A DNA stretch of 64,000 nucleotides. Origin: Paenibacillus terrae (GTDB lineage Bacteria; Bacillota; Bacilli; Paenibacillales; Paenibacillaceae). A program made the position numbers and the translations under genes. A model generated the notes under the pieces. The model had not been told where the DNA came from. It searched no databases and was given only the letters and a program-made list of their open reading frames with translations. Below, piece by piece: positions 46,861 to 60,077 of the stretch; positions within the stretch are counted from its first letter, which is position 1, and every line of letters starts with the position of its first letter. The stretch lies in NCBI RefSeq assembly GCF_005217525.1, contig NZ_PNXQ01000016.1:984953-1048952 (forward strand), read 5' to 3'.

Positions 46861-48147
46861 TCAATTCTTATCTTTCACGCCAATCACGATGACATCCCCC
46901 TCAAAATTATGCATATCAATAACCGTTACATTGTCCTGAAACGCTACCGAAGCTGCTGCAAATCGGCGGTATTCCAGGTCGAGAATCGTAAAGTCATATT
47001 CTCTGAGATCAGCGTCTAGCTTCAGGACCGTGTTCACCGGCACATAAATAGCAATTTTTTCGAAGCCTCTGGTTGAGGCAACTCGAATCTCTTCCGTGTT
47101 CTTAAGTACTATGTTCCAAGGCTGCAAATCTACCAGTCCGTATATCTGGAACAGCCACTTCGCGAATCCATAATCCCACGCTCCCTCAAATTTAAGGGCA
47201 GCCTGCCATTCATAGGGGCTATCAAAACCTTCCCCGGTAACTCCAAAGCGCTTCCCTTTTTTGTGCCAGCTCCATATTCCATGTGCTCCGTAGGTTACGC
47301 CGGCTCCCGCACCGGACAAAAGACTTTGCCATGCAGCTTTACGCACGTCGGCACGGCCGAAACGACCGTATTCTCTCCGGCTGTATCCCATCATCTCGTA
47401 GCAAGGTTCCGAGTTTAGCACAGGCCGTGTTACCCGCTTGTTGTAGAAGTCCAACGCCAAGGTGTAGGCCTTGGACTGAAACTGCGAATTGTGACCTGAT
47501 TGGTACATGTAAAAGTCCAAATTAGGATCGTTAATGAACTCATCCGGCAAATCCGCCAGTCTACCCTGAATGTGCAGAGTAGTCAAGCACTCTGGACTAT
47601 GTGTCTTCACAACGTGAAGTGCGGTGCGGTAATACTCGTTCGCTCGCTCTGACGGGAAGTCAGTATCCCCGCTCACGATATAGATAGGGTGATACTTTGA
47701 GAATCGGTCTGCCGCGTAACGCACATACGGTTCTACCGCCTCCAGAGGCATCTTTTTCTCATCACGAAGCTTGGCCGCCCATGTATCCGGGATGTAATTG
47801 CACCAAAGCAAAACAAGCGCGGGTACAAATCCCTTGCTCACCGCCATCTCGACCATTGTCTCCGCCCTGTCAAAATAGTCTGGATTCAGCGAATAAAAAT
47901 CGTAGCTCCCGTCCTCAATCCGTTCGAACGGTTCGTAATCCAAATCACTGCCGCTGGCATCCCACTGACGCAGCAAATTGATTTGCAGAACATTAAACCC
48001 CTGGCTACTTCTGTAGTCAAGATAATCAGCCCATTCCTCCAGTGAGATGTTGGTAAATGCGCTCCATACGGTATCCGCCAGATAAAAAAATGGAACTCCT
48101 TCATTGACAAAGTAACGTTTGTTCTCCGCTATGCCAAGCTTTATCAT
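46861..48147 (-). CDS. DUF4038 / GH140-like glycoside hydrolase (putative apiosidase)
   Basis: A TIM-barrel glycosidase of the DUF4038 family, whose characterised GH140 members remove apiose from rhamnogalacturonan II. The N-terminal strand NKRYFVNEGVPFFYLADTVWSAFTNISLEEWADYLDYRSSQGFNVLQINLL is diagnostic. VSGDTDF, GRADVRKAAWQSLLSGAGAGVTYGAHGIWSW and the C-terminal DUF5060-like beta tail follow. Acidic residues in VSGD and LNSEPCYE are candidates for catalysis. It has 428 residues and no signal peptide, so it acts inside the cell on imported sugars. It is the last gene of the PTS unit, separated from the IIC gene by a hairpin. Divergent, across the LacI promoter, are isomerase, kinase and transketolase genes fitting apiose. 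Confidence 0.8.
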   Translation of the reverse strand: MIKLGIAENKRYFVNEGVPFFYLADTVWSAFTNISLEEWADYLDYRSSQGFNVLQINLLRQWDASGSDLDYEPFERIEDGSYDFYSLNPDYFDRAETMVEMAVSKGFVPALVLLWCNYIPDTWAAKLRDEKKMPLEAVEPYVRYAADRFSKYHPIYIVSGDTDFPSERANEYYRTALHVVKTHSPECLTTLHIQGRLADLPDEFINDPNLDFYMYQSGHNSQFQSKAYTLALDFYNKRVTRPVLNSEPCYEMMGYSRREYGRFGRADVRKAAWQSLLSGAGAGVTYGAHGIWSWHKKGKRFGVTGEGFDSPYEWQAALKFEGAWDYGFAKWLFQIYGLVDLQPWNIVLKNTEEIRVASTRGFEKIAIYVPVNTVLKLDADLREYDFTILDLEYRRFAAASVAFQDNVTVIDMHNFEGDVIVIGVKDKN

Positions 48148-48181
48148 ACGGCATCCTCCTTATTGCTGTAATGACAGAAAA

Positions 48182-48202
48182 CGGCGAACAGTTCGCCGCT
48201 TT
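48182..48202 (-). terminator. Hairpin between PTS IIC and DUF4038 genes
   Basis: CGGCGAAC and GTTCGCCG are perfectly complementary around a single central base, giving a 7-bp stem with a 3-base loop followed by TTTTCTG on the minus strand. It resembles a weak intrinsic terminator that would lower but not abolish expression of the following glycosidase gene. Confidence 0.5.
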
Positions 48203-48218
48203 CCCTTTTATTGCTCAT

Positions 48219-49523
48219 TTATGAAGTAACGATACTAGCTTGGGCTCCAGCCGTTCCCTCCTGCTCTGACTTCTCCTGTGCTTCGCGTTCCCTGTTCAAC
48301 GCTTGTTTATCAAGCGTTCTAAAGAACGGATAGTAAATCAACATACAAACGGGAATGAGCAAAAGCTGTGCAGCTGCAAGTCTCCAGCTCCCCTCAATAA
48401 AGCCCAGAGCAAAAATAGGAGTGCCAAATGCCGGGTAAATTCCGATGGGTGCAGGCAGCAAGCCCGCAGTTGTCGCAAAATAACCGAGGACGGCGCAGAC
48501 GATAGGAGCAACGATAAACGGAATAGCCAGGAGCGGATTCAAAACAACTGGAATTCCGAAAATGAGTGGCTCGTGAATCGAGAAGAAAGTCCCCGGAAGG
48601 CCGAGCTTGCCAATCGTGCGTAATTGCTTGCTCTTGGCCAAGAAGACCAGCAGGAGAGCGAAGCCCAGCATCGGCGCATAGTTTGAGAAGATATACCAGA
48701 AAGCCAGCCCGATAATGTTCGGTAGCGGAGCTCCCGCCTGGAAAGCGTCGAGATTGGCAAGATCCAGGCTCATCCAGATCGGTTTGACAATGGCAAGCGT
48801 TACAATTGCGCCGTGGATTCCGAACATCCAGAGCACCTGCATAATGATGAGGGCGACAATCATAGCCCCCAGTGATCCACCCAGTCCTTCCAGTGGCACT
48901 TGCAGATAGGTATAAATAAACTCATGGACCGTACCGAATGACGTATGCATGAACAGACCGGAAACGATAACGAATGCCATAGCTACGAGTATCGCTGGAA
49001 TTAATCCTGAGAATGTTTTGACAACGGTTGGAGGTACTCCTTCGGGCATTTTAATGGTCCAGTTGCGATCGACAATCCAGATATACAATCGGGAAGCCAG
49101 CAAGCCAACCAACATAGCGACAAACAAACCCTGCGCACCAAGCCACTGAAGTGGAAGCGCCCGGACTTTATCGAATGTTTGAATCGGCGTCAAAATAAGA
49201 AACGAGAGCAGTGCCGTTGCTGCCGGAACCAGCGGGTCCTTGTCAAAAGCTTGCGCCAGTCTGTAGGCGATGAAGAAGACTGCATAGAGGGCGATGATGC
49301 CAGTTGTCATCGTCGATCCTAATCCGATAATACCCTTAATGGGTGCGATGAGGTTCTGGTAAGGCTCCCAGGCAAGTGCGGAGAAAAGCGTCGAAAATGC
49401 TCCAATAATCAAAAAAGGAAGGGTGGACATCAGTCCATTTGATATAGCGCTCATATAGCGATTTTGCTGAATTTTCCCAGCGTATCTTTGTAATTTATGC
49501 GATAGTTTTTTTTCGTTAGCCAT
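48219..49523 (-). CDS. PTS transporter subunit EIIC, lactose/cellobiose family
   Basis: Membrane channel of a beta-glucoside-type PTS. It has ten or so hydrophobic segments and 434 residues. The opening KLQRYAGKIQQNRYMSAISNGLMSTLPFLIIGAFSTLF and the conserved segment FFSIHEPLIFGIPVVLNPLLAIPF (substrate-site Glu of the family) match the CelB/LicC group. The C-terminus is a Glu/Gln-rich hydrophilic tail. AGGAGTTGAAGG precedes the ATG. It works with the IIA and IIB proteins encoded 1.5-2 kb upstream. The 6-phospho-beta-glucosidase gene lies between, suggesting a disaccharide or aryl-glucoside substrate. Confidence 0.93.
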   Translation of the reverse strand: MANEKKLSHKLQRYAGKIQQNRYMSAISNGLMSTLPFLIIGAFSTLFSALAWEPYQNLIAPIKGIIGLGSTMTTGIIALYAVFFIAYRLAQAFDKDPLVPAATALLSFLILTPIQTFDKVRALPLQWLGAQGLFVAMLVGLLASRLYIWIVDRNWTIKMPEGVPPTVVKTFSGLIPAILVAMAFVIVSGLFMHTSFGTVHEFIYTYLQVPLEGLGGSLGAMIVALIIMQVLWMFGIHGAIVTLAIVKPIWMSLDLANLDAFQAGAPLPNIIGLAFWYIFSNYAPMLGFALLLVFLAKSKQLRTIGKLGLPGTFFSIHEPLIFGIPVVLNPLLAIPFIVAPIVCAVLGYFATTAGLLPAPIGIYPAFGTPIFALGFIEGSWRLAAAQLLLIPVCMLIYYPFFRTLDKQALNREREAQEKSEQEGTAGAQASIVTS

Positions 49524-49568
49524 ATTCCTTCAACTCCTGCTTTAGAGTTTCATCTGTTGTACTATAAT

Positions 49569-51008
<1,440 letters not shown>

Positions 51009-51024
51009 CTATTTGTACAGACGA

Positions 51025-51324
51025 TTATAGATTTAAGGCTTCGGCAAGTACCTTTTCACCATTCATCATGCCATAATCCATTCTGTCGATTACGCTTACC
51101 TTGATGCCTTTAGGCTCGTATTTGGTTTTAAAATCGTCTTCCAAATAGCCGACCTGCGGTCCAATCAGCAGTACATCCGTTTTGTCCGCATACTCTTTAA
51201 AGGAGCTTTCGGAAGTAGCTCTGATCTCAACCTCAACATTTTGAGCCTGTGCAGCCTTCTGCATTTTCTGCACCAGCATACTTGTAGACATTCCCGCTGC
51301 ACATACGAGCGTAATTTGTTTCAT
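51025..51324 (-). CDS. PTS transporter subunit EIIB, lactose/cellobiose family
   Basis: Cytoplasmic phosphotransfer subunit of 99 residues. The phosphocysteine is Cys8 in ITLVCAAGMSTSMLV, the P-loop-like signature of the family, and LLIGPQVGYLEDDFK follows. It receives phosphate from IIA and passes it to the sugar held by IIC. Its ATG overlaps the IIA stop codon (ATGA), so the two are translated together in equal amounts. Confidence 0.94.
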   Translation of the reverse strand: MKQITLVCAAGMSTSMLVQKMQKAAQAQNVEVEIRATSESSFKEYADKTDVLLIGPQVGYLEDDFKTKYEPKGIKVSVIDRMDYGMMNGEKVLAEALNL

Positions 51325-51680
51325 TGGTTATTCCTCCCCGATAATGGTGTGATGGATACTGATGCTTCGTAACGGTTCAATCTGCTGTAAAGTTCCACGA
51401 TATGTCTCGCCAGATCCTTGGTCGTAATGGCAGACATGAGATGGTCTTGTGCATGCACCATGAGCAGTGTCACTTCATGAGTTGTCCCACCCGCTTCCTG
51501 CTGGATCAGTCGCGTCTGCGATTTATGCGCTTGGACCAGTTCGTTCTTGCATTCTTCAAGACATTCTGCTGCCTGCTCCGCATTACCCTTCTCGGCAAAG
51601 CTGATGGCTTCCATAGCTTTACTCTTCGCAATACCCGAATTTGTTATAAGTCCCATTATGATTTCCTGATACTCATCCAT
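51321..51680 (-). CDS. PTS transporter subunit EIIA, lactose/cellobiose family
   Basis: Helical trimeric phosphocarrier of 119 residues. The phospho-histidine is His76 in LLMVHAQDHLMSA, and the first helix IIMGLITNSGIAKSKAMEAISFAEKG is typical. It takes phosphate from HPr. ATG 51680 is placed by GGGGTGA 5 bases upstream, and six residues of the longest frame are dropped. It is the first gene of the PTS transport unit, after a terminator that isolates it from the regulator genes. Confidence 0.94.
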   Translation of the reverse strand: MDEYQEIIMGLITNSGIAKSKAMEAISFAEKGNAEQAAECLEECKNELVQAHKSQTRLIQQEAGGTTHEVTLLMVHAQDHLMSAITTKDLARHIVELYSRLNRYEASVSITPLSGRNNQ

Positions 51681-51800
51681 TGAATTCACCCCATGCATTT
51701 CATCTCTTTAGCTTACAGATTCAGTGTATACGATTCTTGCCGACTTCTAAACGCAACCCTTTTCCACTAGAAGCGGAAATGCTTACAATGGAAAAAAATA

Positions 51801-51853
51801 GCAAAACTCCGCACGATGCTTGTTCAAAATCCAAGCAGATGTCGTGCAGAGCT
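51801..51853 (-). terminator. Terminator between PRD regulator and PTS IIA genes
   Basis: On the minus strand CTCTGCACGACATCTGCTTG pairs with CAAGCATCGTGCGGAG, with a small internal bulge, followed by TTTTGCTATTTTTTT. The PTS genes therefore probably have a promoter of their own between here and 51680. Confidence 0.8.
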
Positions 51854-51858
51854 TTATT

Positions 51859-53808
51859 TTAATACAGTTTATGTTTGACAATAATTTGAGCAAAATCCCC
51901 GTAGGTTTTGCATTCCAGCATTTGCTGGATAATATCGGAGTCATCGACTAGCCCCATCAGATGCTTATACATTTTCGCCGGAGGCTCGTCGCCATTTTTG
52001 TTAATACTGAGCAGGCAGACGAATTGCACGGGCTTACCGGACCAATCTATGGGAGATTTCAGTGTACAGACCGCCCATACCGTCCGGTTGCTTTGCGGAA
52101 TAATGGGATGAGGAATGGCTACCAGATTTCCGTAAGCCGTAGGAGCAGCATTTTCCCTTTCCAGCACCAATCCGATGAATCCCTCGGAAGAGCGGATCAA
52201 TCCGGAAGCATGCATTCTTTCTCCCAAAAAAGTAATAATCTCTTCTTTTGTAGTGAAGTTTTGTCTCAGAAACACAAGCTCTTCCATAATGTAGCGGAAA
52301 GTAAATTCGCCTTCATCCGTCAGCAGCTCTTCAATCTTATCGATGTCACCGCCGCCAAGCAGAGTCTGAACTACCACGACCGGAACGGATAATGTCTGCG
52401 GGATTGGAACTGTGCTTACCACAAAATCAATGCCATGCAAAGGAACCTGCTGCAACTTGTAATACTCGGTCGTGCCAGCAACCTCAAGCCTTTCACCGAA
52501 CTTGCTACGTAACTTGTAATACAGCAAGCGGGCACTTCCAACACCCGAAGTGCATACGACAAGGCAGCGTTTAGGTCTGTTGTTCATCTGCTGCCTCTCC
52601 ATGGCGGCCCCGATATGAATCGCCAAATAACCCATTTCTGTCTCTGGTATAGCCAAATTCAGTTTGCTCTCGATCAACTTGGCACCTATGACCCCCGCCT
52701 GAAAAGCCAAAGGATAATTATTCTTCACATGATCCAGCATCGGATTACGGATATTCATCCCATATTTTACGCGGTTTAGCGCCGATTTCAGATGAAGACA
52801 TATGCCCATTAACAGTTCTTGATCCCGGCTGATATTCAGGTTAAAACCCCTGTCAATTTCAGCCAGCATTTCTCTGCCAAGCTCATAAATTCCCCGATCC
52901 AAGAGCTTCTGAGGTCCCGCCTCTTCTGTCTGTTGCTCCGTAACTCCCTCAAACCACTTGTTCCCGGCCAGATGCATGGCGATATAAGCAACCTCATCCT
53001 CCGGAAAGATCAAATCCATTTGCTTTTCAATGTGGCTAACAATATGTTCAGCGGCTCGAAATTCCTCGGTAGCCCGAAAATCTTCCCTTTCATCGGAAAA
53101 CATTGCGACCCGGTTCCCATCGCGAATACGCTTGCAAGCTATAGCAATATGAATGGACAGGTTGTTGAAGGCAACATCCGACAAAGTGACCCCGTGGTTC
53201 TGGATTTGCTCCAGAATAATACCGCGAATGAGTGTCATTTCCCAAGGGGTAACCATTCTCGATGCGGCCTCCACGCCCCCAGTCCTTTCTTCTTCAGAAC
53301 GGTTGACGATGAATTCAGACATGCAGAAACGTAAGCGAACCTCGTCGCCCCTCAGCTTGACACCGTAATTCGGGCGCTTATCAATGCCGATTCCGTAAGC
53401 CTGTAGCATATGCTTAACCTCTTTGAAATCATTTTGTACGGTGGATTTGCTAATGTATAACTCATCCGCCAACTCTTCCAGCTTCAAATAATTTTCTGTA
53501 AGCAGGAGGCGCGAGATTAAATAACGCTGTCGGTATTCAGGAGAATTGGGATCATCCGGTTCGTTATACAGGAACAACTGCTGTAGGAGCGTACGAAAGC
53601 TGCGGTCGTCCGTGATTTTCAGTTCATACCCCCTTGAACGAACAGGTTGAATCGATGCTCCATGCTTGGCCAGAAATTCATCCAGTTCTCTGATATCGCT
53701 ACGTACGGTACGTGAAGTAACCTGGATCAACTTTGCCAGATGCTCGCTCTTGACAGGAGTGTCCGCAGCCAGCAAATGCTGTAGAATCGAAACCATTCGC
53801 GTATTCAT
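51859..53808 (-). CDS. PRD-containing transcriptional activator with PTS EIIB/EIIA modules (LicR-like)
   Basis: Multi-domain regulator controlled by PTS phosphorylation. Order: HTH_11 winged helix (1-60), second Mga-type HTH (about 85-140, YLKLEELADELYISKSTVQNDFKEV), PRD1 (about 190-290), PRD2 (about 300-400), GatB-like EIIB with Cys in CLVVCTSGVGSARLL, and fructose-type EIIA with His in NLVAIPHPIIPQ. It has 649 residues. This architecture matches B. subtilis LicR, which activates the lichenan PTS operon. Phosphorylation by HPr activates it, and phosphorylation through its cognate IIB shuts it down when no sugar is present. It probably controls the IIA-IIB-GH1-IIC-DUF4038 unit immediately downstream. 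Confidence 0.92.
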   Translation of the reverse strand: MNTRMVSILQHLLAADTPVKSEHLAKLIQVTSRTVRSDIRELDEFLAKHGASIQPVRSRGYELKITDDRSFRTLLQQLFLYNEPDDPNSPEYRQRYLISRLLLTENYLKLEELADELYISKSTVQNDFKEVKHMLQAYGIGIDKRPNYGVKLRGDEVRLRFCMSEFIVNRSEEERTGGVEAASRMVTPWEMTLIRGIILEQIQNHGVTLSDVAFNNLSIHIAIACKRIRDGNRVAMFSDEREDFRATEEFRAAEHIVSHIEKQMDLIFPEDEVAYIAMHLAGNKWFEGVTEQQTEEAGPQKLLDRGIYELGREMLAEIDRGFNLNISRDQELLMGICLHLKSALNRVKYGMNIRNPMLDHVKNNYPLAFQAGVIGAKLIESKLNLAIPETEMGYLAIHIGAAMERQQMNNRPKRCLVVCTSGVGSARLLYYKLRSKFGERLEVAGTTEYYKLQQVPLHGIDFVVSTVPIPQTLSVPVVVVQTLLGGGDIDKIEELLTDEGEFTFRYIMEELVFLRQNFTTKEEIITFLGERMHASGLIRSSEGFIGLVLERENAAPTAYGNLVAIPHPIIPQSNRTVWAVCTLKSPIDWSGKPVQFVCLLSINKNGDEPPAKMYKHLMGLVDDSDIIQQMLECKTYGDFAQIIVKHKLY

Positions 53809-53850
53809 TCAAGGTGACCCCCCGTTCTTTTGTCCAAATCTATCCTCCAC

Positions 53851-54921
53851 TCAGGCCTGCTCGGTTAGCTCGCCTTTAGGTACGAAAGTGGCAGGAGCAG
53901 CACAGGAATTGCGCTCTACAAATTTCGTATCCACTGTGATTTTTGCTGTAACCTGCGTTCCCTGCTCAATAGAATCGGTCAGGAGATCGACAGCCAGAAC
54001 AGCCATTCTTTCTTTTTCTACATGAATGGTTGTTAGCTCCGGCGTAACAATGACCGATTCCGTAATGTTGTCAAAGCCGATAATTGAAGTATCCTGCGGC
54101 ACCCGGATGCCAAGCTCGCTCATGGTCTTCATAGCGCTGATAGCAATATAGTCGCATTCGCAGAACCAGGCCGTTGGCAAAGTTTTCCCGCTCTCCAGAT
54201 AAACGGTTAGCTGCCGATTCAGATCCTCCTGCGAAGTAAGAATGGTTGGCGCTACAGCCAGCATTTGTGCCTCCGGAATCTTCAGCCCCCGTTCCATGAG
54301 TGCCGACAAAAATCCGCGTTTACGTTCCTCAAAATTATGAATTCGTACATTTGAAGCAATATAACCGATTGAGGTATGACCCATGTCGCATAAATAAGCT
54401 CCTGCCTGATAAGCACCCATAACATTATTAATCTGGATAAATTGTACGGGAAGCGTATCAAAGCAGGTATCCAGCACAATCAGATTCTGCAGCTCGGCAT
54501 GAATATCACTGATCTGCTCACGGGTCAGATTGGTTCCCAGAACAATGGTGCCTGCGCTGCGTTTCTCCTCTGCAACCATCTGGATATCCCTCTGGAAAAA
54601 TTCTACGTCGACCGTCGAGAAGATCAACGAATACCCTTTTTGTCGGCAACGTTCCTCAATAAACTGGATTAATTCTTTAAAAAATGGCTGCTGATAGTAT
54701 TCCTCAAGGACAATACCCGAATTTGTACACACGAGAAAAAGCAAGGACTTATCACTTCTTGAAGCCGTTATCGTCTTGCTTTTGGGACTGTATCCTGCCT
54801 CGTGGGCTACCTGGAGAATACGTTCACGCGTATCCGGGCCAATACCCGGCTTGCCGCTGAAGGCCAGTGAAACAGCTGATTTGGATACGTTGGCCAGCTT
54901 AGCGATGTCTTCCATTTTCAT
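53851..54921 (-). CDS. LacI family transcriptional regulator
   Basis: N-terminal LacI HTH (MEDIAKLANVSKSAVSLAFSGKPGIGPDTRERIL) with an unusual recognition helix (KSAVSLAFSG rather than TSTVSRVLNG) and a long hinge. The periplasmic-binding-like sensor domain (about 60-340) follows, including SIIGFDNITESVIVTPELTTIHVE. It has 356 residues. It is divergent from the isomerase operon, 324 bases away, and two palindromes flank that operon's promoter. It is therefore the likely repressor there, with the sugar or its phosphate as inducer. The regulator gene pair (LacI then LicR-like) is co-oriented with a 42-base gap. Confidence 0.93.
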   Translation of the reverse strand: MKMEDIAKLANVSKSAVSLAFSGKPGIGPDTRERILQVAHEAGYSPKSKTITASRSDKSLLFLVCTNSGIVLEEYYQQPFFKELIQFIEERCRQKGYSLIFSTVDVEFFQRDIQMVAEEKRSAGTIVLGTNLTREQISDIHAELQNLIVLDTCFDTLPVQFIQINNVMGAYQAGAYLCDMGHTSIGYIASNVRIHNFEERKRGFLSALMERGLKIPEAQMLAVAPTILTSQEDLNRQLTVYLESGKTLPTAWFCECDYIAISAMKTMSELGIRVPQDTSIIGFDNITESVIVTPELTTIHVEKERMAVLAVDLLTDSIEQGTQVTAKITVDTKFVERNSCAAPATFVPKGELTEQA

Positions 54922-55054
54922 GCCCTAATTCTCCATTCTAAATAAGATGAACACAGCAGTGAAGTGAATAAGTGAAGTTTACATCGAATTGAGATGTGAT
55001 GCAATGGTTAGCTGAATTTATTTATATTTGTTTAGATATTTGTTTAGTTATTTA

Positions 55055-55074
55055 TTTAGATTTTCGCAACTAAA
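55055..55074 (+). promoter_or_regulatory. Candidate LacI operator 1
   Basis: TTTAG at 55055-55059 and CTAAA at 55070-55074 are inverted around a CG-centred core, the usual shape of a LacI-family operator. It ends 17 bases before the -35 box. Further TTTAG half sites lie just upstream (55031-55047). Confidence 0.55.
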
Positions 55075-55091
55075 TATCACCGAATAATTCA

Positions 55092-55120
55092 TTGACACCG
55101 TTTTAATTCGATGTTACTAT
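55092..55120 (+). promoter_or_regulatory. SigA promoter of the isomerase-transketolase-kinase operon
   Basis: Perfect -35 TTGACA (55092-55097), exact 17-base spacer, and -10 TACTAT (55115-55120). Transcription would start near 55127. Confidence 0.7.
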
Positions 55121-55147
55121 GGCCTCGACATAGAAATAGTCATTGAA

Positions 55148-55166
55148 TTTAGTTTTTAAAACTAAA
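55148..55166 (+). promoter_or_regulatory. Candidate LacI operator 2
   Basis: TTTAGTTTT and AAAACTAAA are perfectly complementary around one central base (19 bp). It lies about 20 bases after the predicted transcription start. With operator 1, its centre is 92-93 bases away, close to nine helical turns, which suits repression by looping or roadblock. Confidence 0.6.
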
Positions 55167-55245
55167 CTAATTTAATTTTGTTTAGTTTATTTATTCTATT
55201 TTGTTCAGCAAATGTTGTTTATTCAAGTACAGAGGAGACATGATC

Positions 55246-56709
55246 ATGAAGAAATTAAAGTTGGGTTATGCTCCGACGCGCCGATTTACGTTCAGCGCCG
55301 ACGATGCCTTTAAGTACAAAGTGGAAATTCGCAAGAAAATTGAGAGCTTTGGCATGGATATCGACATTGTAGACCTGGAGGGCCTTAATGAGGAAGGCTT
55401 GCTGTATGACGACCATATAAACGCGGATTTAATTGCAAAGCGATTCAAAGAGGAAGAAGTCGACGCAGTTTTTTTCCCACATTGCAACTTTGGTACAGAA
55501 GATACTGTAGCTCGTGTAGGCAAGGCGCTCGGCAAGCCTGTCCTGCTGTGGGGACCGCGGGATGAAGCGCCGCTTGCGGACGGCATGCGCCTTCGCGACA
55601 CCCAATGCGGTATTTTCGCCACAGGTAAAGTGCTTCGAAGATTCAACGTTCCCTTTACCTATGTAACGAACAGTTGGGTGAATGATCCGGTTTTCGAAAG
55701 AGGCTTTACCAACTTTGTGGCTGCCGCCAACGTCGTGCGCCAATTCAAAAGCTTACGCATTCTCCAGATTGGCCCACGCCCTGCTTCGTTCTGGACGATG
55801 ATGTGCAATGAAGGCGAACTGCTGGAACGCTTCGGTATTGAGATTCACCCCATTACCATTGTCGACATTCAGCTTAGAACCAAAAAAATCGCCTCCAGCA
55901 ATAGCTCCGAGCTTCTGGAAACGATGGATTACATTAAAGAAAAACTCGATTACAGTGAAGTGACCGAAGATGACGTAAGACGGATAGCTGCTTTAAAGGT
56001 CGCCATGAAATCCTTCGCCCGTGAGACGGGAAGCAGCGCTATCGCAATCCAGTGCTGGTCCTCTTTGCAGGATGCCATATCCATTATGCCGTGTCTGGCC
56101 AACGCAATCCTGACTGACGAACAAATTCCGGTTACTTGTGAAACAGATATCCATGGAGCCATTACTTCCATTATGGTGCAGGCTGCCTCCATGAACACAA
56201 TGCCAACCTTCTTCGCAGATATTACTGTTCGACATCCTGAGAATGATAACGGCGAACTTCTCTTCCACTGTGGCAATTTCCCGGTCTCGCTCTCTGTAGA
56301 GAACAAACCGAAGTTACGCAAGCATTTTCTCTTCGACGACCATTCTCCCGGAACGCATGAAGGCGAAATCCGCGGTGGCGGTATGACCATTGCCCGATTT
56401 GACGGCGACCACGGTGAGTACTCCATGTTCCTCGGGCGTGCCCGGGGTATTGAAGGTCCTTATACCCGCGGCTCCTACGTATGGGTGGAAGTAAACGATT
56501 GGCCGCTGTGGGAGGAAAAACTCGTAAAAGGGCCTTACGTCCATCATTCCGTAGGTATCCACGCCAATGTGATCCCGGCCATTTATGAGGCCTGCAATTA
56601 TATACCCGGCCTGACGCCTGATCCGGTCGATCCCACAGAACAGGAAATTCAAAGCTGGCTTAGAGGATCCGATCTCGCCCGTAATAAGCACCCGAACATT
56701 CACGTTTGA
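55246..56709 (+). CDS. L-fucose/L-arabinose isomerase family protein (candidate apiose isomerase)
   Basis: Sugar ketol-isomerase of the fucose/arabinose isomerase superfamily, 487 residues. Visible features are the Rossmann-like N-terminus with VDAVFFPHCNFGTEDTVARV, LLWGPRDEAPLADGMRLRDTQCG, the metal-site-type region ACET-like in VTCETDIHGAITSIM, and the C-terminal VRHPENDNGELLFHCGNFP and HHSVGIH. The family needs a divalent metal. It probably converts an aldose to the ketose used by the FGGY kinase two genes on. ATG 55246 is preceded by AGAGGAG with 8-base spacing. Substrate inferred only from the neighbours, with apiose the best fit and fucose, arabinose or another pentose possible. Confidence 0.8.
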   Translation: MKKLKLGYAPTRRFTFSADDAFKYKVEIRKKIESFGMDIDIVDLEGLNEEGLLYDDHINADLIAKRFKEEEVDAVFFPHCNFGTEDTVARVGKALGKPVLLWGPRDEAPLADGMRLRDTQCGIFATGKVLRRFNVPFTYVTNSWVNDPVFERGFTNFVAAANVVRQFKSLRILQIGPRPASFWTMMCNEGELLERFGIEIHPITIVDIQLRTKKIASSNSSELLETMDYIKEKLDYSEVTEDDVRRIAALKVAMKSFARETGSSAIAIQCWSSLQDAISIMPCLANAILTDEQIPVTCETDIHGAITSIMVQAASMNTMPTFFADITVRHPENDNGELLFHCGNFPVSLSVENKPKLRKHFLFDDHSPGTHEGEIRGGGMTIARFDGDHGEYSMFLGRARGIEGPYTRGSYVWVEVNDWPLWEEKLVKGPYVHHSVGIHANVIPAIYEACNYIPGLTPDPVDPTEQEIQSWLRGSDLARNKHPNIHV

Positions 56710-56763
56710 GACGTCTAAAGCGACAAAGCCCATCCCTATAATATCTATCTTGAGGAGGACATT

Positions 56764-57609
56764 ATGGAAATCCAGGAACTGAAAGTCAAAGCCGCACAAA
56801 TCCGCATGGACCTGCTAACCATCATTCACCGCGCCAAAACGGGACATACGGGGGGATCGCTGAGCAATACAGACATTTTAACGGCTTTATATTATGAAAT
56901 CATGAACGTTGACCCTGCTAATCCAAAATGGGATGACCGTGATCGCTTTATCGCCAGCAAAGGGCATTCCGTAGAATCTCTATGGTGTATTCTGGCCGAC
57001 CGGGGCTTTTTCCCAAAAGAAGAGCTGGAGACCTATAGCCAGTTCGGTACCCGACTCATTGGCCACCCGAACAACAAGGTTCCAGGGATTGAAATGAACA
57101 CCGGGGCCCTCGGCCACGGTCTGCCCATTTCCGTAGGCATGGCACTAGCTGCCAAGCGGGATGACCGTCCTTACCGTGTATTTTGTCTAATGGGAGACGG
57201 CGAACAGGCCGAAGGCTCCAACTGGGAAGCCGCTATGGCAGGCTCTCATTATAAGCTGGATAACCTGATCGGCATTATCGACCGCAACCGACTCCAGATC
57301 AGCGGTGCTACCGAAGAAGTCATGGGACTGGAGCCGCTGGAAGAGAAGTGGACTGCCTTCGGCTGGAACGTCGTCTCTATCAACGGCAACAATATGGAAG
57401 AATTGCTTAAGGCATTCAGGTCCGTCCCTGAAGTAGCGGGAAAGCCAACGTTAATTATGGCCAATACCACCAAGGGCAAAGGCGTATCGTTCGCCGAAAA
57501 TGTCCCGGCATGGCACCACCATGTGCCTAATGATAAAGAGTTGGAGCTGGCTCTCACAGAGCTAAAGGCAACAATCGAAGAATTGACGCAGAAAGGACAG
57601 GTGCATTAA
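56764..57609 (+). CDS. Transketolase, N-terminal (thiamine diphosphate) subunit
   Basis: First half of a two-subunit transketolase. The ThDP-binding motif runs from GDGEQAEGSNWEAAM (144-158) to the conserved NRLQISG-type region. His residues of the active site appear in GHTGGSLS (about 27-34) and SKGHSVESL. It has 281 residues. Its stop codon is 2 bases before the partner's ATG. Split transketolases in sugar operons are usually dedicated to one branched or unusual ketose phosphate, and the companion isomerase and kinase support that here. The enzyme would transfer a two-carbon unit to glyceraldehyde 3-phosphate. TTGAGGAGG lies 5 bases upstream. Confidence 0.93.
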   Translation: MEIQELKVKAAQIRMDLLTIIHRAKTGHTGGSLSNTDILTALYYEIMNVDPANPKWDDRDRFIASKGHSVESLWCILADRGFFPKEELETYSQFGTRLIGHPNNKVPGIEMNTGALGHGLPISVGMALAAKRDDRPYRVFCLMGDGEQAEGSNWEAAMAGSHYKLDNLIGIIDRNRLQISGATEEVMGLEPLEEKWTAFGWNVVSINGNNMEELLKAFRSVPEVAGKPTLIMANTTKGKGVSFAENVPAWHHHVPNDKELELALTELKATIEELTQKGQVH

Positions 57610-57611
57610 GC

Positions 57612-58547
57612 ATGAATAAAATTCCTAATCGCCAAGTAATCTGTGACACACTGCTGGAGTTGGCCAAAGACGACCGTGATATCATGGTACTGGCCAGCGA
57701 TTCGCGTGGTTCTGCTGCAATGGCTCCCTTTGCCAATACATTCCCGGAGCAGTTCGTTGAGGTCGGCATTGCCGAACAGAATATCGTAGGCATGTCTGCA
57801 GGCCTGGCCCACAGCGGCAAAAAACCGTTTGTGACTTCACCAGCCTGCTTCCTCAGTATGCGCAGTATTGAACAAGTCAAAGTTGACGTTGCTTATTCGC
57901 GGACAAATGTGAAGCTCATCGGCATTAGCGGAGGCGTCAGCTACGGGGCGCTTGGCATGTCACACCACTCCGTGCAAGATATCGCAGTAGCCCGGGCAAT
58001 TCCGGGACTGGCGATTGTCCTGCCTGCTGATCGTCACGAAACGAAGAAAATGACCGAAGCGCTTGTAAAATATGACGGCGGCGTATACGTGCGAATCGGG
58101 CGTAATCCCGTTGAGGACGTTTACGAAACCGATGATTACCCATTCGAAATAGGCAAAGCTATAACTGTGAGAGAAGGCAAAGACGTTACAATTATTGGTG
58201 TCGGTGAAACCGTGCGAATCGCACTCGATGCCGCCAAGGCACTCAACGACGAAGGCATATCCGCCCGGGTAATCAACATGCATACAATCAAGCCGCTGGA
58301 TGAAGAGGCGATCATTACCGCTGCACGTGAAACTGGACGCATCATTACCGTTGAGGAACATAGCATTTACGGCGGTCTCGGCGCAGCGGTGGCAGAAATT
58401 GTTGTGCAGAATCACCCGGTTCCTATGAGAGTGCTCGGCATCCCGGATGAGCCGGCGATTGCCGGTAAATCGGCGGAAGTTTTCCACCACTACGGCATTA
58501 CGGGTGACAATATCAAACAAATTGCATTCGAATTGATTAATAAGTAG
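57612..58547 (+). CDS. Transketolase, C-terminal (pyrimidine-binding) subunit
   Basis: Second half of the split transketolase, 311 residues. The pyrimidine-binding domain includes the catalytic Glu55 of EVGIAEQNIVGMSAGLA, with HHSVQDIAVARAIPG and VRIGRNPVEDVYE following. The C-terminal transketolase domain holds INMHTIKPLDEEAI and VEEHSIYGGLGAAVAEI. It is translated right behind the first subunit (2-base gap) and must pair with it to form the active site. Confidence 0.93.
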   Translation: MNKIPNRQVICDTLLELAKDDRDIMVLASDSRGSAAMAPFANTFPEQFVEVGIAEQNIVGMSAGLAHSGKKPFVTSPACFLSMRSIEQVKVDVAYSRTNVKLIGISGGVSYGALGMSHHSVQDIAVARAIPGLAIVLPADRHETKKMTEALVKYDGGVYVRIGRNPVEDVYETDDYPFEIGKAITVREGKDVTIIGVGETVRIALDAAKALNDEGISARVINMHTIKPLDEEAIITAARETGRIITVEEHSIYGGLGAAVAEIVVQNHPVPMRVLGIPDEPAIAGKSAEVFHHYGITGDNIKQIAFELINK

Positions 58548-58559
58548 AGGGCGAAGCAT

Positions 58560-60077
58560 ATGGAGCACAATCAACAATATATATTGGCCATCGACCAGAG
58601 TACTTCAGGCACCAAAGCACTCCTTGTAGACCATCAGGGTACAGTAATCGCCCGCAGCGGGATGGAGCATAAGCAATATTACCCCCATCCCGGCTGGGTA
58701 GAGCATGATCCGCTCGAAATTTATGAAAATGTCAAAATAACGGCCCGCAGCGTATTGGAGCAAGCATGCGTCCACCCGTCCGCACTAGCTGCGCTGACAA
58801 TCACCAATCAACGCGAAACGGCACTGGTGTGGGATAAGACGACTGGTCAGCCAATATATAATGCTATTGTCTGGCAATGCCAGCGTACGGCGGACCTGTG
58901 CGCCGAGCTGAAGCAAGCTGGCCACGAAAGCACTATCCACGCCAAAACAGGGCTTATGCTTGACCCTTATTTCTCCGCTGCCAAGTTCAAGTGGATCATT
59001 GAACATGCGGAAGGAGCTGCCAACCTGCTGGCTGAAGGGAGGCTACTTGCAGGGAACATGGACAGTTGGCTGGTCTGGAAGCTTACCGGCGGCAAAAAAC
59101 ATGCAACCGACTATACAAATGCCAGCCGTACATCGCTGTTCAATATCCACACGCTGGAGTGGGATGAAGAGCTTGCTCAGTTGTTTTCCGTTCCTTCTTC
59201 CCTGCTGCCCGAGGTTAAACCATCCGACGCTATTTTCGGATATACGGCAGATTGCGACCTTTTCAATGAGAAAATACCGATTTCGGGCGTCATTGGAGAT
59301 TCACAAGGGGCATTGTATGGGCATCTGTGTTTCAAGCCCGGAACAGCCAAAGCAACCTTTGGCACGGGCACCTCTGTATTAATGAACGTAGGGAATCATC
59401 CGGTGGATGGCGGTGACGGACTTGTAACCGCTATCGCCTGGGGGGCCGGCGGAACTGTTACGTATGCACTTGAAGCCATCATCCGGACAACAGGTGACAG
59501 CATCAAATGGACGCAGGACAACTTAGGACTGTTCTCTACCTTTGAGGAAATGCAGCGCTTAGTCGAAAGCGTTCCTGCAAACGATGGTGTCTATCTTGTG
59601 CCTGCCTTTGTCGGAATGGGCGCTCCCTATTGGAATCCCTACGCCCGGGCGGCAATTATCGGTATGAACCGTGGAACTGGCAAAGGACACATTGTCCGGG
59701 CTGCGTTGGAGAGCATCGCTTACCAAGTACGGGATGCTATAGAGTTTATTCAGGAACAGTCCGGGATTGAGTTGGTCGGCCTGCGCACGGACGGTGGGGC
59801 TTCCTCCAACACTTGGCTGATGCAATTTCAGGCCGATATTCTGGGCAACCTTGTGAGCCGATCCACATGTGCCGAGCTGTCGGCCATGGGTTCAGTCTAT
59901 CTCGGTGGGCTCGGCGCAGGCTTTTGGTCCGATCCAGATCAAATCGCTTCCAATCTTAAAATGTATGAAGCATATGAACCAAAGATGGATGACGCTACCA
60001 GAGAGAAATATTATACTGGCTGGCAGCGGGCTGTTCAATCTGTAGTGCAACAACAGCATGAATCTCCCGTTTTATAA
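58560..60077 (+). CDS. FGGY carbohydrate kinase (glycerol-kinase-like; candidate apulose kinase)
   Basis: ATP-dependent sugar kinase of 505 residues. The FGGY N-terminal phosphate motif reads AIDQSTSGTKALLVD (about 10-24). The substrate region is GWVEHDPLEIYENV and TDYTNASRTSLFNIHTLEWD, and the C-terminal domain has GVYLVPAFVGMGAPYWNPYARAAIIGMNRGT and LRTDGGASSNTWLMQFQADIL. Overall it is close to glycerol kinases, but here it sits at the end of an isomerase and transketolase operon, which favours a ketose substrate. Apulose kinases of the known D-apiose pathway are FGGY enzymes of this kind. A terminator follows. Confidence 0.88.
   Translation: MEHNQQYILAIDQSTSGTKALLVDHQGTVIARSGMEHKQYYPHPGWVEHDPLEIYENVKITARSVLEQACVHPSALAALTITNQRETALVWDKTTGQPIYNAIVWQCQRTADLCAELKQAGHESTIHAKTGLMLDPYFSAAKFKWIIEHAEGAANLLAEGRLLAGNMDSWLVWKLTGGKKHATDYTNASRTSLFNIHTLEWDEELAQLFSVPSSLLPEVKPSDAIFGYTADCDLFNEKIPISGVIGDSQGALYGHLCFKPGTAKATFGTGTSVLMNVGNHPVDGGDGLVTAIAWGAGGTVTYALEAIIRTTGDSIKWTQDNLGLFSTFEEMQRLVESVPANDGVYLVPAFVGMGAPYWNPYARAAIIGMNRGTGKGHIVRAALESIAYQVRDAIEFIQEQSGIELVGLRTDGGASSNTWLMQFQADILGNLVSRSTCAELSAMGSVYLGGLGAGFWSDPDQIASNLKMYEAYEPKMDDATREKYYTGWQRAVQSVVQQQHESPVL

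Follow-up and report, generated by a model that had tools for sequence, protein, structure and literature searches.

A phosphotransferase system gene set linked to a putative D-apiose pathway in Paenibacillus terrae and its relatives, with a counterpart in Listeria monocytogenes

Apiose is the terminal sugar of many flavonoid and phenolic glucosides of plants, and a non-oxidative pathway for D-apiose consisting of ApsI, AplK and AptAB was reportedly described by Carter et al. in 2018. Three enterobacterial clusters with AptAB (Klebsiella, Sodalis and Rahnella) contain an isomerase of the broad L-fucose/L-arabinose isomerase family, an FGGY kinase and genes for an ATP-binding cassette (ABC) importer. 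Escherichia coli strains with an apiose cluster of the SE15 type grow on D-apiose, and two oxidoreductases have been proposed to replace the apsI that is missing there (PMC13001218, in the available portion of the paper). SE15, a sequence query in that portion, carries aptAB and aplK, which we located by the locus tags given there, and its cluster too has ABC importer genes; the names aplK and aptAB also appear in the available part of PMC12054123. Here we describe a locus at positions 46861-60077 of a 64,000-nucleotide stretch of Paenibacillus terrae contig NZ_PNXQ01000016.1 (the window), in which an isomerase, a split transketolase and an FGGY kinase (together, the module) lie beside a lactose/cellobiose-family phosphotransferase system (PTS) and a GH140-type apiosidase. 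A sequence-only reading of the window had proposed a PTS-fed pathway for apiose-containing glucosides and knew of no described system of this kind. A search by titles and the starts of abstracts, with most subscription journals outside its reach, likewise found no published work joining a PTS to apiose; the parts of the pathway are of known kinds, and what this search did not find described in print is their arrangement.

The locus resembles the non-oxidative pathway in its split transketolase, in an FGGY kinase with the pocket serines of SE15 AplK and in an isomerase of the broad family seen in the three enterobacterial clusters. Unlike those clusters with their ABC importer genes, it has a PTS and an internal GH140 enzyme, and its kinase (39% identity) and isomerase (26-27%) are remote from their counterparts. 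With cellobiose and beta-glucoside PTS operons of the LicBCAH and bgl types it shares the LicR-type activator, IIA, IIB, IIC and GH1, to which it adds GH140 and the attached module. All of the genes named by the sequence-only reading were found as open reading frames and by family scans (Table 1). On the minus strand the order of transcription is LacI, the LicR-type regulator, IIA, IIB, GH1, IIC and GH140, with gaps of -4 to 71 nt downstream of IIA and a spacing of 160 nt between LicR and IIA. On the plus strand the order is isomerase, transketolase N half, transketolase C half and FGGY kinase, with gaps of 2 to 54 nt.

We put at roughly three in four the probability that apiosyl-glucosides are imported by the PTS, that apiose is released inside the cell by GH140 and that it enters central metabolism by way of apulose. 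The lactose-family PTS would import an apiosyl-beta-glucoside with phosphorylation of glucose O-6, and because that oxygen receives the phosphate the apiose would sit on another one, most likely O-2 as in apiin-type compounds. In the cytoplasm GH140 would release D-apiose while the glycoside bears its phosphate, and what is left would be split into glucose 6-phosphate and the aglycone by GH1 or by some other cellular 6-phospho-beta-glucosidase. The isomerase would convert apiose to apulose and the kinase apulose to apulose 4-phosphate, whose two-carbon unit the split transketolase would pass to glyceraldehyde 3-phosphate, yielding xylulose 5-phosphate and dihydroxyacetone phosphate. LacI would repress both the plus-strand operon and a lacI-licR transcript from the common intergenic region, and LicR would activate the PTS operon. 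We infer the substrates, the order of hydrolysis and all of the regulation in this scheme; on comparative evidence, PTS import, intracellular release and the apulose route are well supported by the conserved linkage, the kinase pocket and the operators common to both parts in relatives.

Within the window's family, 100 of 394 genomes gave an isomerase match (E up to 1e-3), and 81 of these, counting our own and some fragments, carry orthologs at about 79-100% identity; most of the named copies come from Paenibacillus and Cohnella, with P. terrae nearest. Eighty loci were fetched, the window's own being left out together with that of genome G004, which was read separately as locus L231. By tblastn all four module genes are present in 78 of the 80, one of the 78 having its isomerase in pieces. 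This recurrence in relatives shows that the genes have not come together by chance. A lactose-type PTS with GH140 accompanies the module in 14 loci, a glucose-type PTS with GH140 in three and a nearby PTS gene without GH140 in three, while a PTS is absent from 60. Window-type GH140 is thus found in 17 of the 20 PTS-bearing loci and in none of the 60 PTS-free ones (Fisher 1.1e-14, a figure that overstates the case as the loci are related). In this count L123 (also L220) is taken as having GH140 though it holds a remnant of 58 codons, L115 as lacking it despite an apparent GH140 start upstream of its PTS gene, and L094 and L096 as PTS-bearing although their PTS gene and a GH1, together on the other strand, resemble a neighbouring bgl-type operon. 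The apparent remnants in L220 (11312-11485) and L115 both lie beside PTS genes. In a scan of named loci (the best 80 of 169, a set overlapping the other survey genomes) nine had PTS and GH140 and 71 had no PTS; species with both in this set include P. terrae, P. albidus, P. massiliensis, P. macerans and P. turicensis.

The two halves of the locus might instead be adjacent but separate systems, a beta-glucoside PTS operon whose GH140 has some other use and an apiose operon served by another importer. This would agree with the separate regulators and their distinct, genome-unique proposed operators, with a strong hairpin ahead of the PTS operon and with the 60 module loci devoid of a PTS. We nevertheless think it unlikely. 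Four of the 14 loci with a lactose-type PTS are collinear in the order isomerase, transketolase N, transketolase C, kinase, LicR, IIA, IIB, IIC, GH140 (GH140 being a remnant in one), and in three loci of the P. macerans type (L112, L114 and L119) GH140 and the glucose-type PTS lie upstream of the isomerase. In these three the motif TTTAGTT/AACTAAA occurs six, five and four times per ~20 kb, and 13 of the 15 sites precede GH140 or the isomerase, the other two lying within the first codons of the isomerase, so that one motif is common to both parts.

The same combination is also found in Listeria monocytogenes, on a single strand and with gene gaps of -8 to +15 nt, in the order LacI, isomerase (54% identical), transketolase N, transketolase C, kinase, PTS IIBCA and GH140 (DUF4038). 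The likeness to the window extends to each of these functions, although the Listeria IIBCA belongs to another PTS family and the 15.7-kb stretch contains no annotated GH1 or LicR. That the link persists with a different PTS family and near-zero gaps speaks against two separate systems. We assigned the numbers lmo1030-lmo1036 by gene order and annotation, lmo1030 being presumably the first gene of the set. In the portions of the literature available to us these genes are described as varying between lineages and as being targeted by the small RNA RliI, with no apiose function given, and the available part of PMC8190317 names lmo1035 and lmo1036.

GH140 tracks the PTS beyond the module as well. 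Twenty further Apiosidase loci were taken among the matches listed (in L247 the module is only ~11 kb away); window-type GH140 is present in 19, and all 19, among the matches listed, adjoin a PTS gene. In eight of the eight genomes without an isomerase ortholog, and in none of the 11 with one, genes of the Gfo/Idh/MocA and EutH types stand between GH140 and the PTS. G097 is one of the 11 though its isomerase is broken, and L252, which has another type of GH140 and a Gfo gene 60% identical, was excluded from them. The Gfo gene occurs at an identity of at least 75% in 12 of the 394 genomes, none of them among the 81 with isomerase orthologs. The Gfo/EutH set and the apiose module seem to stand in for each other in handling one and the same released sugar, the former possibly a route by which it is oxidised or exported.

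The kinase belongs to the glycerol-kinase branch of the FGGY family, and we considered that it might simply be a second glycerol kinase with coincidental neighbours, as its passing of the NCBIfam cut-offs for GlpK (TIGR01311 and NF000756; 607.4 bits against 590.35) could imply. The genome has another glpK, however, which scores better (728 bits against 607) and lies at a different place, and the window kinase carries Ser248 and Ser272 where glycerol kinases carry Gln and Phe, residues that we take to be Gln246 and Phe270 in E. coli numbering. Every one of 108 distinct relatives taken from isomerase loci has the Ser/Ser pocket, as do all eight references (window, Listeria, Monoglobus, SE15, Klebsiella, Sodalis, Rahnella and Sinorhizobium), two sets that overlap slightly. 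By comparison, all 28 clear GlpK sequences have Gln/Phe and none has Ser/Ser; they came from 30 loci of a phylum sample plus our own genome, three of the 31 rows being dropped as wrong open frames for want of the conserved Arg/Glu. With the kinase adjoining the transketolase halves in 78 of 80 loci, we regard a second glycerol kinase as very improbable and rejected it on the pocket and the separate glpK. The signature is our own, defined from SE15 AplK and the relatives without a published rule; the smaller residues might accommodate the extra two-carbon arm of apulose. A kinase tree supported the module clade weakly (0.29) and was left out of the argument. The enzyme is thus of the FGGY family, as the sequence-only reading held, although NCBIfam would name it a glycerol kinase; its assignment to apulose draws on two pocket residues and gene context. 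A Sinorhizobium plasmid (L219 7986-11283) encodes AptA- and AptB-like halves and a Ser/Ser kinase together with short-chain dehydrogenase/reductase (SDR) genes; no such isomerase is annotated in that stretch, as is likewise the case in E. coli SE15.

Of all the steps, the isomerase is the weakest assignment. Its Pfam Fucose_iso_C score (20.4 bits) falls below the 29.3 cut-off, and its best NCBIfam model is sulfoquinovose isomerase (SftI), at 103.8 bits against a cut-off of 700. Its AlphaFold model, whose confidence is modest (mean pLDDT 66.7), finds its matches among L-arabinose isomerases (best Foldseek E 5.4e-13), and PDB sequences gave no match to the isomerase, to its alignment or to the Klebsiella enzyme. 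We placed the start at 55246 (55240 being in frame) rather than at the TTG at 55201, judging by the ribosome-binding site and by what lies upstream in relatives. The L-arabinose/L-fucose isomerase fold thus agrees with the fucose-isomerase-family enzyme of the sequence-only reading, and sequence by itself does not single out apiose as the substrate; that the enzyme is the counterpart of ApsI is plausible. The transketolase consists of two adjacent half-genes with what we take to be the marks of the family, a thiamine diphosphate (ThDP) motif and a catalytic Glu.

These data could be read to mean that the module serves another sugar, with the transketolase cutting a different ketose phosphate, for example from a sulfosugar or another branched sugar. 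The SftI hit points that way, a sulfo-transketolase pathway exists in the portion of the literature seen, and some isomerase relatives have no transketolase nearby. Yet the Klebsiella isomerase linked to AptA, the one tested, scores similarly on the SftI model (114 bits), so the model does not discriminate; the kinase carries the AplK pocket; and Apiosidase-related proteins lie near 39 of the 80 loci (17 of window type and 22 of DUF5060 type). The sulfoquinovose version was rejected on the SftI score, which is under the cut-off, and on the kinase, and another sugar in general seems to us improbable, slightly more so than two separate systems.

Of 398 genomes sampled across the phylum, 11 including our own matched the isomerase at E up to 1e-60, and five of the other ten carry the module. 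Two of these five, from one genus, have another lactose-type PTS and a GH1 72-73% identical to that of the window ahead of the module. In one of the two, at L221 (4540-6459), a protein of the NADH:flavin oxidoreductase (old-yellow-enzyme) family is encoded between the lactose-type IIC and GH1; it recalls flavone reductases and may act on a flavone aglycone. The five without transketolase halves nearby are L223, L226, L227 and L230, plus L224 on a short contig end; the isomerase family therefore also serves other settings, in another or a scattered pathway.

Among the 60 PTS-free loci, 22 match the Monoglobus DUF5060 protein, 14 a nucleoside-hydrolase-like protein and 24 neither; the Apiosidase domain was seen in Pfam runs of the Monoglobus protein and one of the 22 (L053). 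In these 14 loci, which have no PTS or Apiosidase matches, the nucleoside-hydrolase-like gene is found near the module, after the kinase or a GH43 gene in those read (for example L060 16095-17012, L079 13853-14776 and L153 14690-15706, with PF01156 in the two run through Pfam), and might encode an unrecognised apiofuranosidase. In L117, L118, L120, L087 and L088 the module adjoins GH2- or GH78-like genes, which suggests use on other plant glycans.

The GH140 protein matches the PF13204 Apiosidase domain at 313.4 bits (cut-off 26.5), and D161 and E247, in GD and EP.YE motifs, align with 8t9w and 3kzs; which residues are catalytic we take from BT1012, presumably the protein of 3kzs/5msy. It shares its catalytic domain and Asp/Glu positions with these apiosidases, but unlike them is PTS-linked, carries an extra SRxxYGR motif and has no visible signal peptide, the start lying at the domain edge (MIKLGIAENKRYFVNEG...). 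This was judged by eye and agrees with the signal-peptide-less enzyme of the sequence-only reading. The SRxxYGR motif follows the nucleophile in 39 of 39 PTS-linked GH140 sequences (some near-identical, namely the window and its own species, and Listeria three times), in all of which the catalytic residues are kept. It occurs in none of 27 DUF5060-type relatives, is missing from one other GH140 and was not seen in the alignments with 8t9w and 3kzs. Its two invariant arginines, which the sequence places close to the nucleophile, might serve to clamp a phosphate. A broader proposal is that a PTS-coupled apiose pathway is common to Paenibacillus and Listeria (lmo1030-1036), that this GH140 subfamily consists of phospho-apiosidases gripping the PTS-made 6-phosphate by the SRxxYGR arginines, and that module-less genomes have an oxidise-or-export variant with Gfo/Idh and EutH; we think that it could equally prove right or wrong.

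The PTS is of the lactose/cellobiose kind, with IIC, IIB and IIA and their phosphorylatable Cys and His; IIB and IIA exceed the Pfam cut-offs and fall slightly below those of NCBIfam. GH1 scores below the NCBIfam subfamily cut-offs and has 8b80 and 4ze4 as its best solved relatives. It keeps S-x6-K-x-Y, which we take to be the GH1 Ser/Lys/Tyr phosphate motif, and has Thr at the position of a Trp in the 6-phospho-beta-galactobiosidase 4ze4. The sequence-only reading had counted GH1 as part of the pathway; it is present in the window, and just three of the 14 loci with a lactose-type PTS keep an intact GH1 of the window type between IIB and IIC. At L121 (17401-17601) a 67-codon GH1 remnant lies there, so GH1 has been lost from the operon in some relatives. 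As to substrate, lactose-family PTSs phosphorylate a primary hydroxyl, here glucose O-6, and such a GH1 requires that phosphate. In 1,6-apiosyl aroma precursors O-6 is occupied by the apiosyl unit, and for that reason the PTS should refuse them. The isomerase and kinase need free apiose, which would therefore have been attached elsewhere than at O-6. The 1,2-linked apiosides, such as apiin and liquiritin apioside, thus fit better than the aroma precursors also offered by the sequence-only reading, which this chemistry disfavours. Among the open reading frames of the window the plus-strand operon includes no transporter gene; a transporter of free apiose elsewhere in the genome was not searched for.

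Two palindromes, TTTAGTTTTTAAAACTAAA and TTTCCGCTTCTAGTGGAAA, each a pattern found at one place in the genome, are proposed as the LacI and LicR sites, respectively. The commonest 8-mer upstream of 93 isomerase genes is AACTAAAC. The promoter-like TTGACA-17-TACTAT pattern was found 33 times against 21.7 expected, and the hairpin between LicR and IIA has a z of -7.4 for the 111-nt stretch 51760-51870. With a spacing of 42 nt, lacI and licR probably form a single transcript that begins around the first palindrome, and LacI could therefore govern the supply of LicR. The locus is flanked by a LysR gene and a major facilitator superfamily (MFS) gene, which we did not count as parts of the pathway; in L098 and L099, the nearest relatives, open frames of similar size likewise come after the module.

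Table 1. Features of the locus in the window, and the Gfo/EutH genes of a module-less relative
Feature	Position	Strand	Evidence or remark
GH140-type apiosidase; catalytic Asp161 and Glu247 by alignment; SRxxYGR arginines R257/R262	46861..48147	-	PF13204, 313 bits
PTS EIIC, lactose/cellobiose family	48219..49523	-	TIGR00410, 318.9 bits (cut-off 236)
GH1, probable 6-phospho-beta-glucosidase	49569..50993	-	PF00232, 516 bits
PTS EIIB, Cys8	51025..51324	-	PF02302
PTS EIIA, His phosphorylation motif	51321..51698	-	PF02255
Palindrome TTTCCGCTTCTAGTGGAAA, proposed LicR site of the PTS operon	51761..51779	-	conserved in 14 aligned upstream regions
Strong hairpin and U-rich stretch, terminator or attenuator	51802..51856	-	z -7.4
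LicR-type regulator: helix-turn-helix (HTH), two PTS regulation domains (PRD), EIIA domain	51859..53808	-	Pfam scan
LacI-family regulator	53851..54921	-	Pfam scan
Promoter-like TTGACA-17-TACTAT ahead of plus-strand operon	55092..55120	+	consensus match only
Palindrome TTTAGTTTTTAAAACTAAA, proposed LacI operator	55148..55166	+	pattern at one place in genome
Sugar isomerase, L-arabinose/L-fucose isomerase fold, proposed apiose isomerase	55246..56709	+	
Split transketolase N subunit, AptA-like	56764..57609	+	50% identity to SE15 AptA
Split transketolase C subunit, AptB-like	57612..58547	+	36% identity to SE15 AptB
FGGY kinase, proposed apulose kinase; Ser248/Ser272 replace GlpK Gln/Phe	58560..60077	+	
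Gfo/Idh/MocA and EutH-like genes between GH140 and PTS	L235 8913-11053		equivalents in L236, L240, L241, L242, L249, L251 and L254

Several observations weigh against PTS-fed use of apiose by this locus. Genomes with GH140 and the PTS but without the module exist, and 60 of 80 module loci lack a PTS, which shows that the module does not depend on import by one. Of the 14 loci with a lactose-type PTS, 11 have no GH1, a reduced one or another in its place. In addition to passing the glycerol kinase cut-offs, the kinase is 46% identical to the genome's own GlpK against 39% to SE15 AplK. The isomerase is only 26-27% identical to those of the Klebsiella, Sodalis and Rahnella AptAB clusters, where the adjacent AptA genes show 78-79% identity to SE15 AptA, and five of its ten relatives in the phylum sample (49-60% identity) have no transketolase halves nearby. 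Transketolase N matches the solved split transketolase 6yak (286 bits, phmmer) about as well as SE15 AptA (271 bits, BLAST). An operator common to both operons of the window was sought and not found, the two proposed operators being different. Finally, a review names lmo1036 a beta-glucosidase (PMC8079631, in the part available). Against these stand the linkage, the kinase pocket and the relatives' operators, and it is on them that the pathway outlined by the sequence-only reading holds up; the constancy of GH1, the isomerase as judged by sequence and the 1,6-linked substrates do not lend it support.

If PTS-fed apiose use is correct, Gram-positive bacteria, food-borne ones included, would take up the whole glucoside, gain glucose 6-phosphate from it and release the aglycone inside the cell. 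It would also propose a function for an unexplained Listeria operon in which the kinase is probably mis-named as a glycerol kinase, and it points to a glycosidase subfamily that may be active on phosphorylated apiosides.

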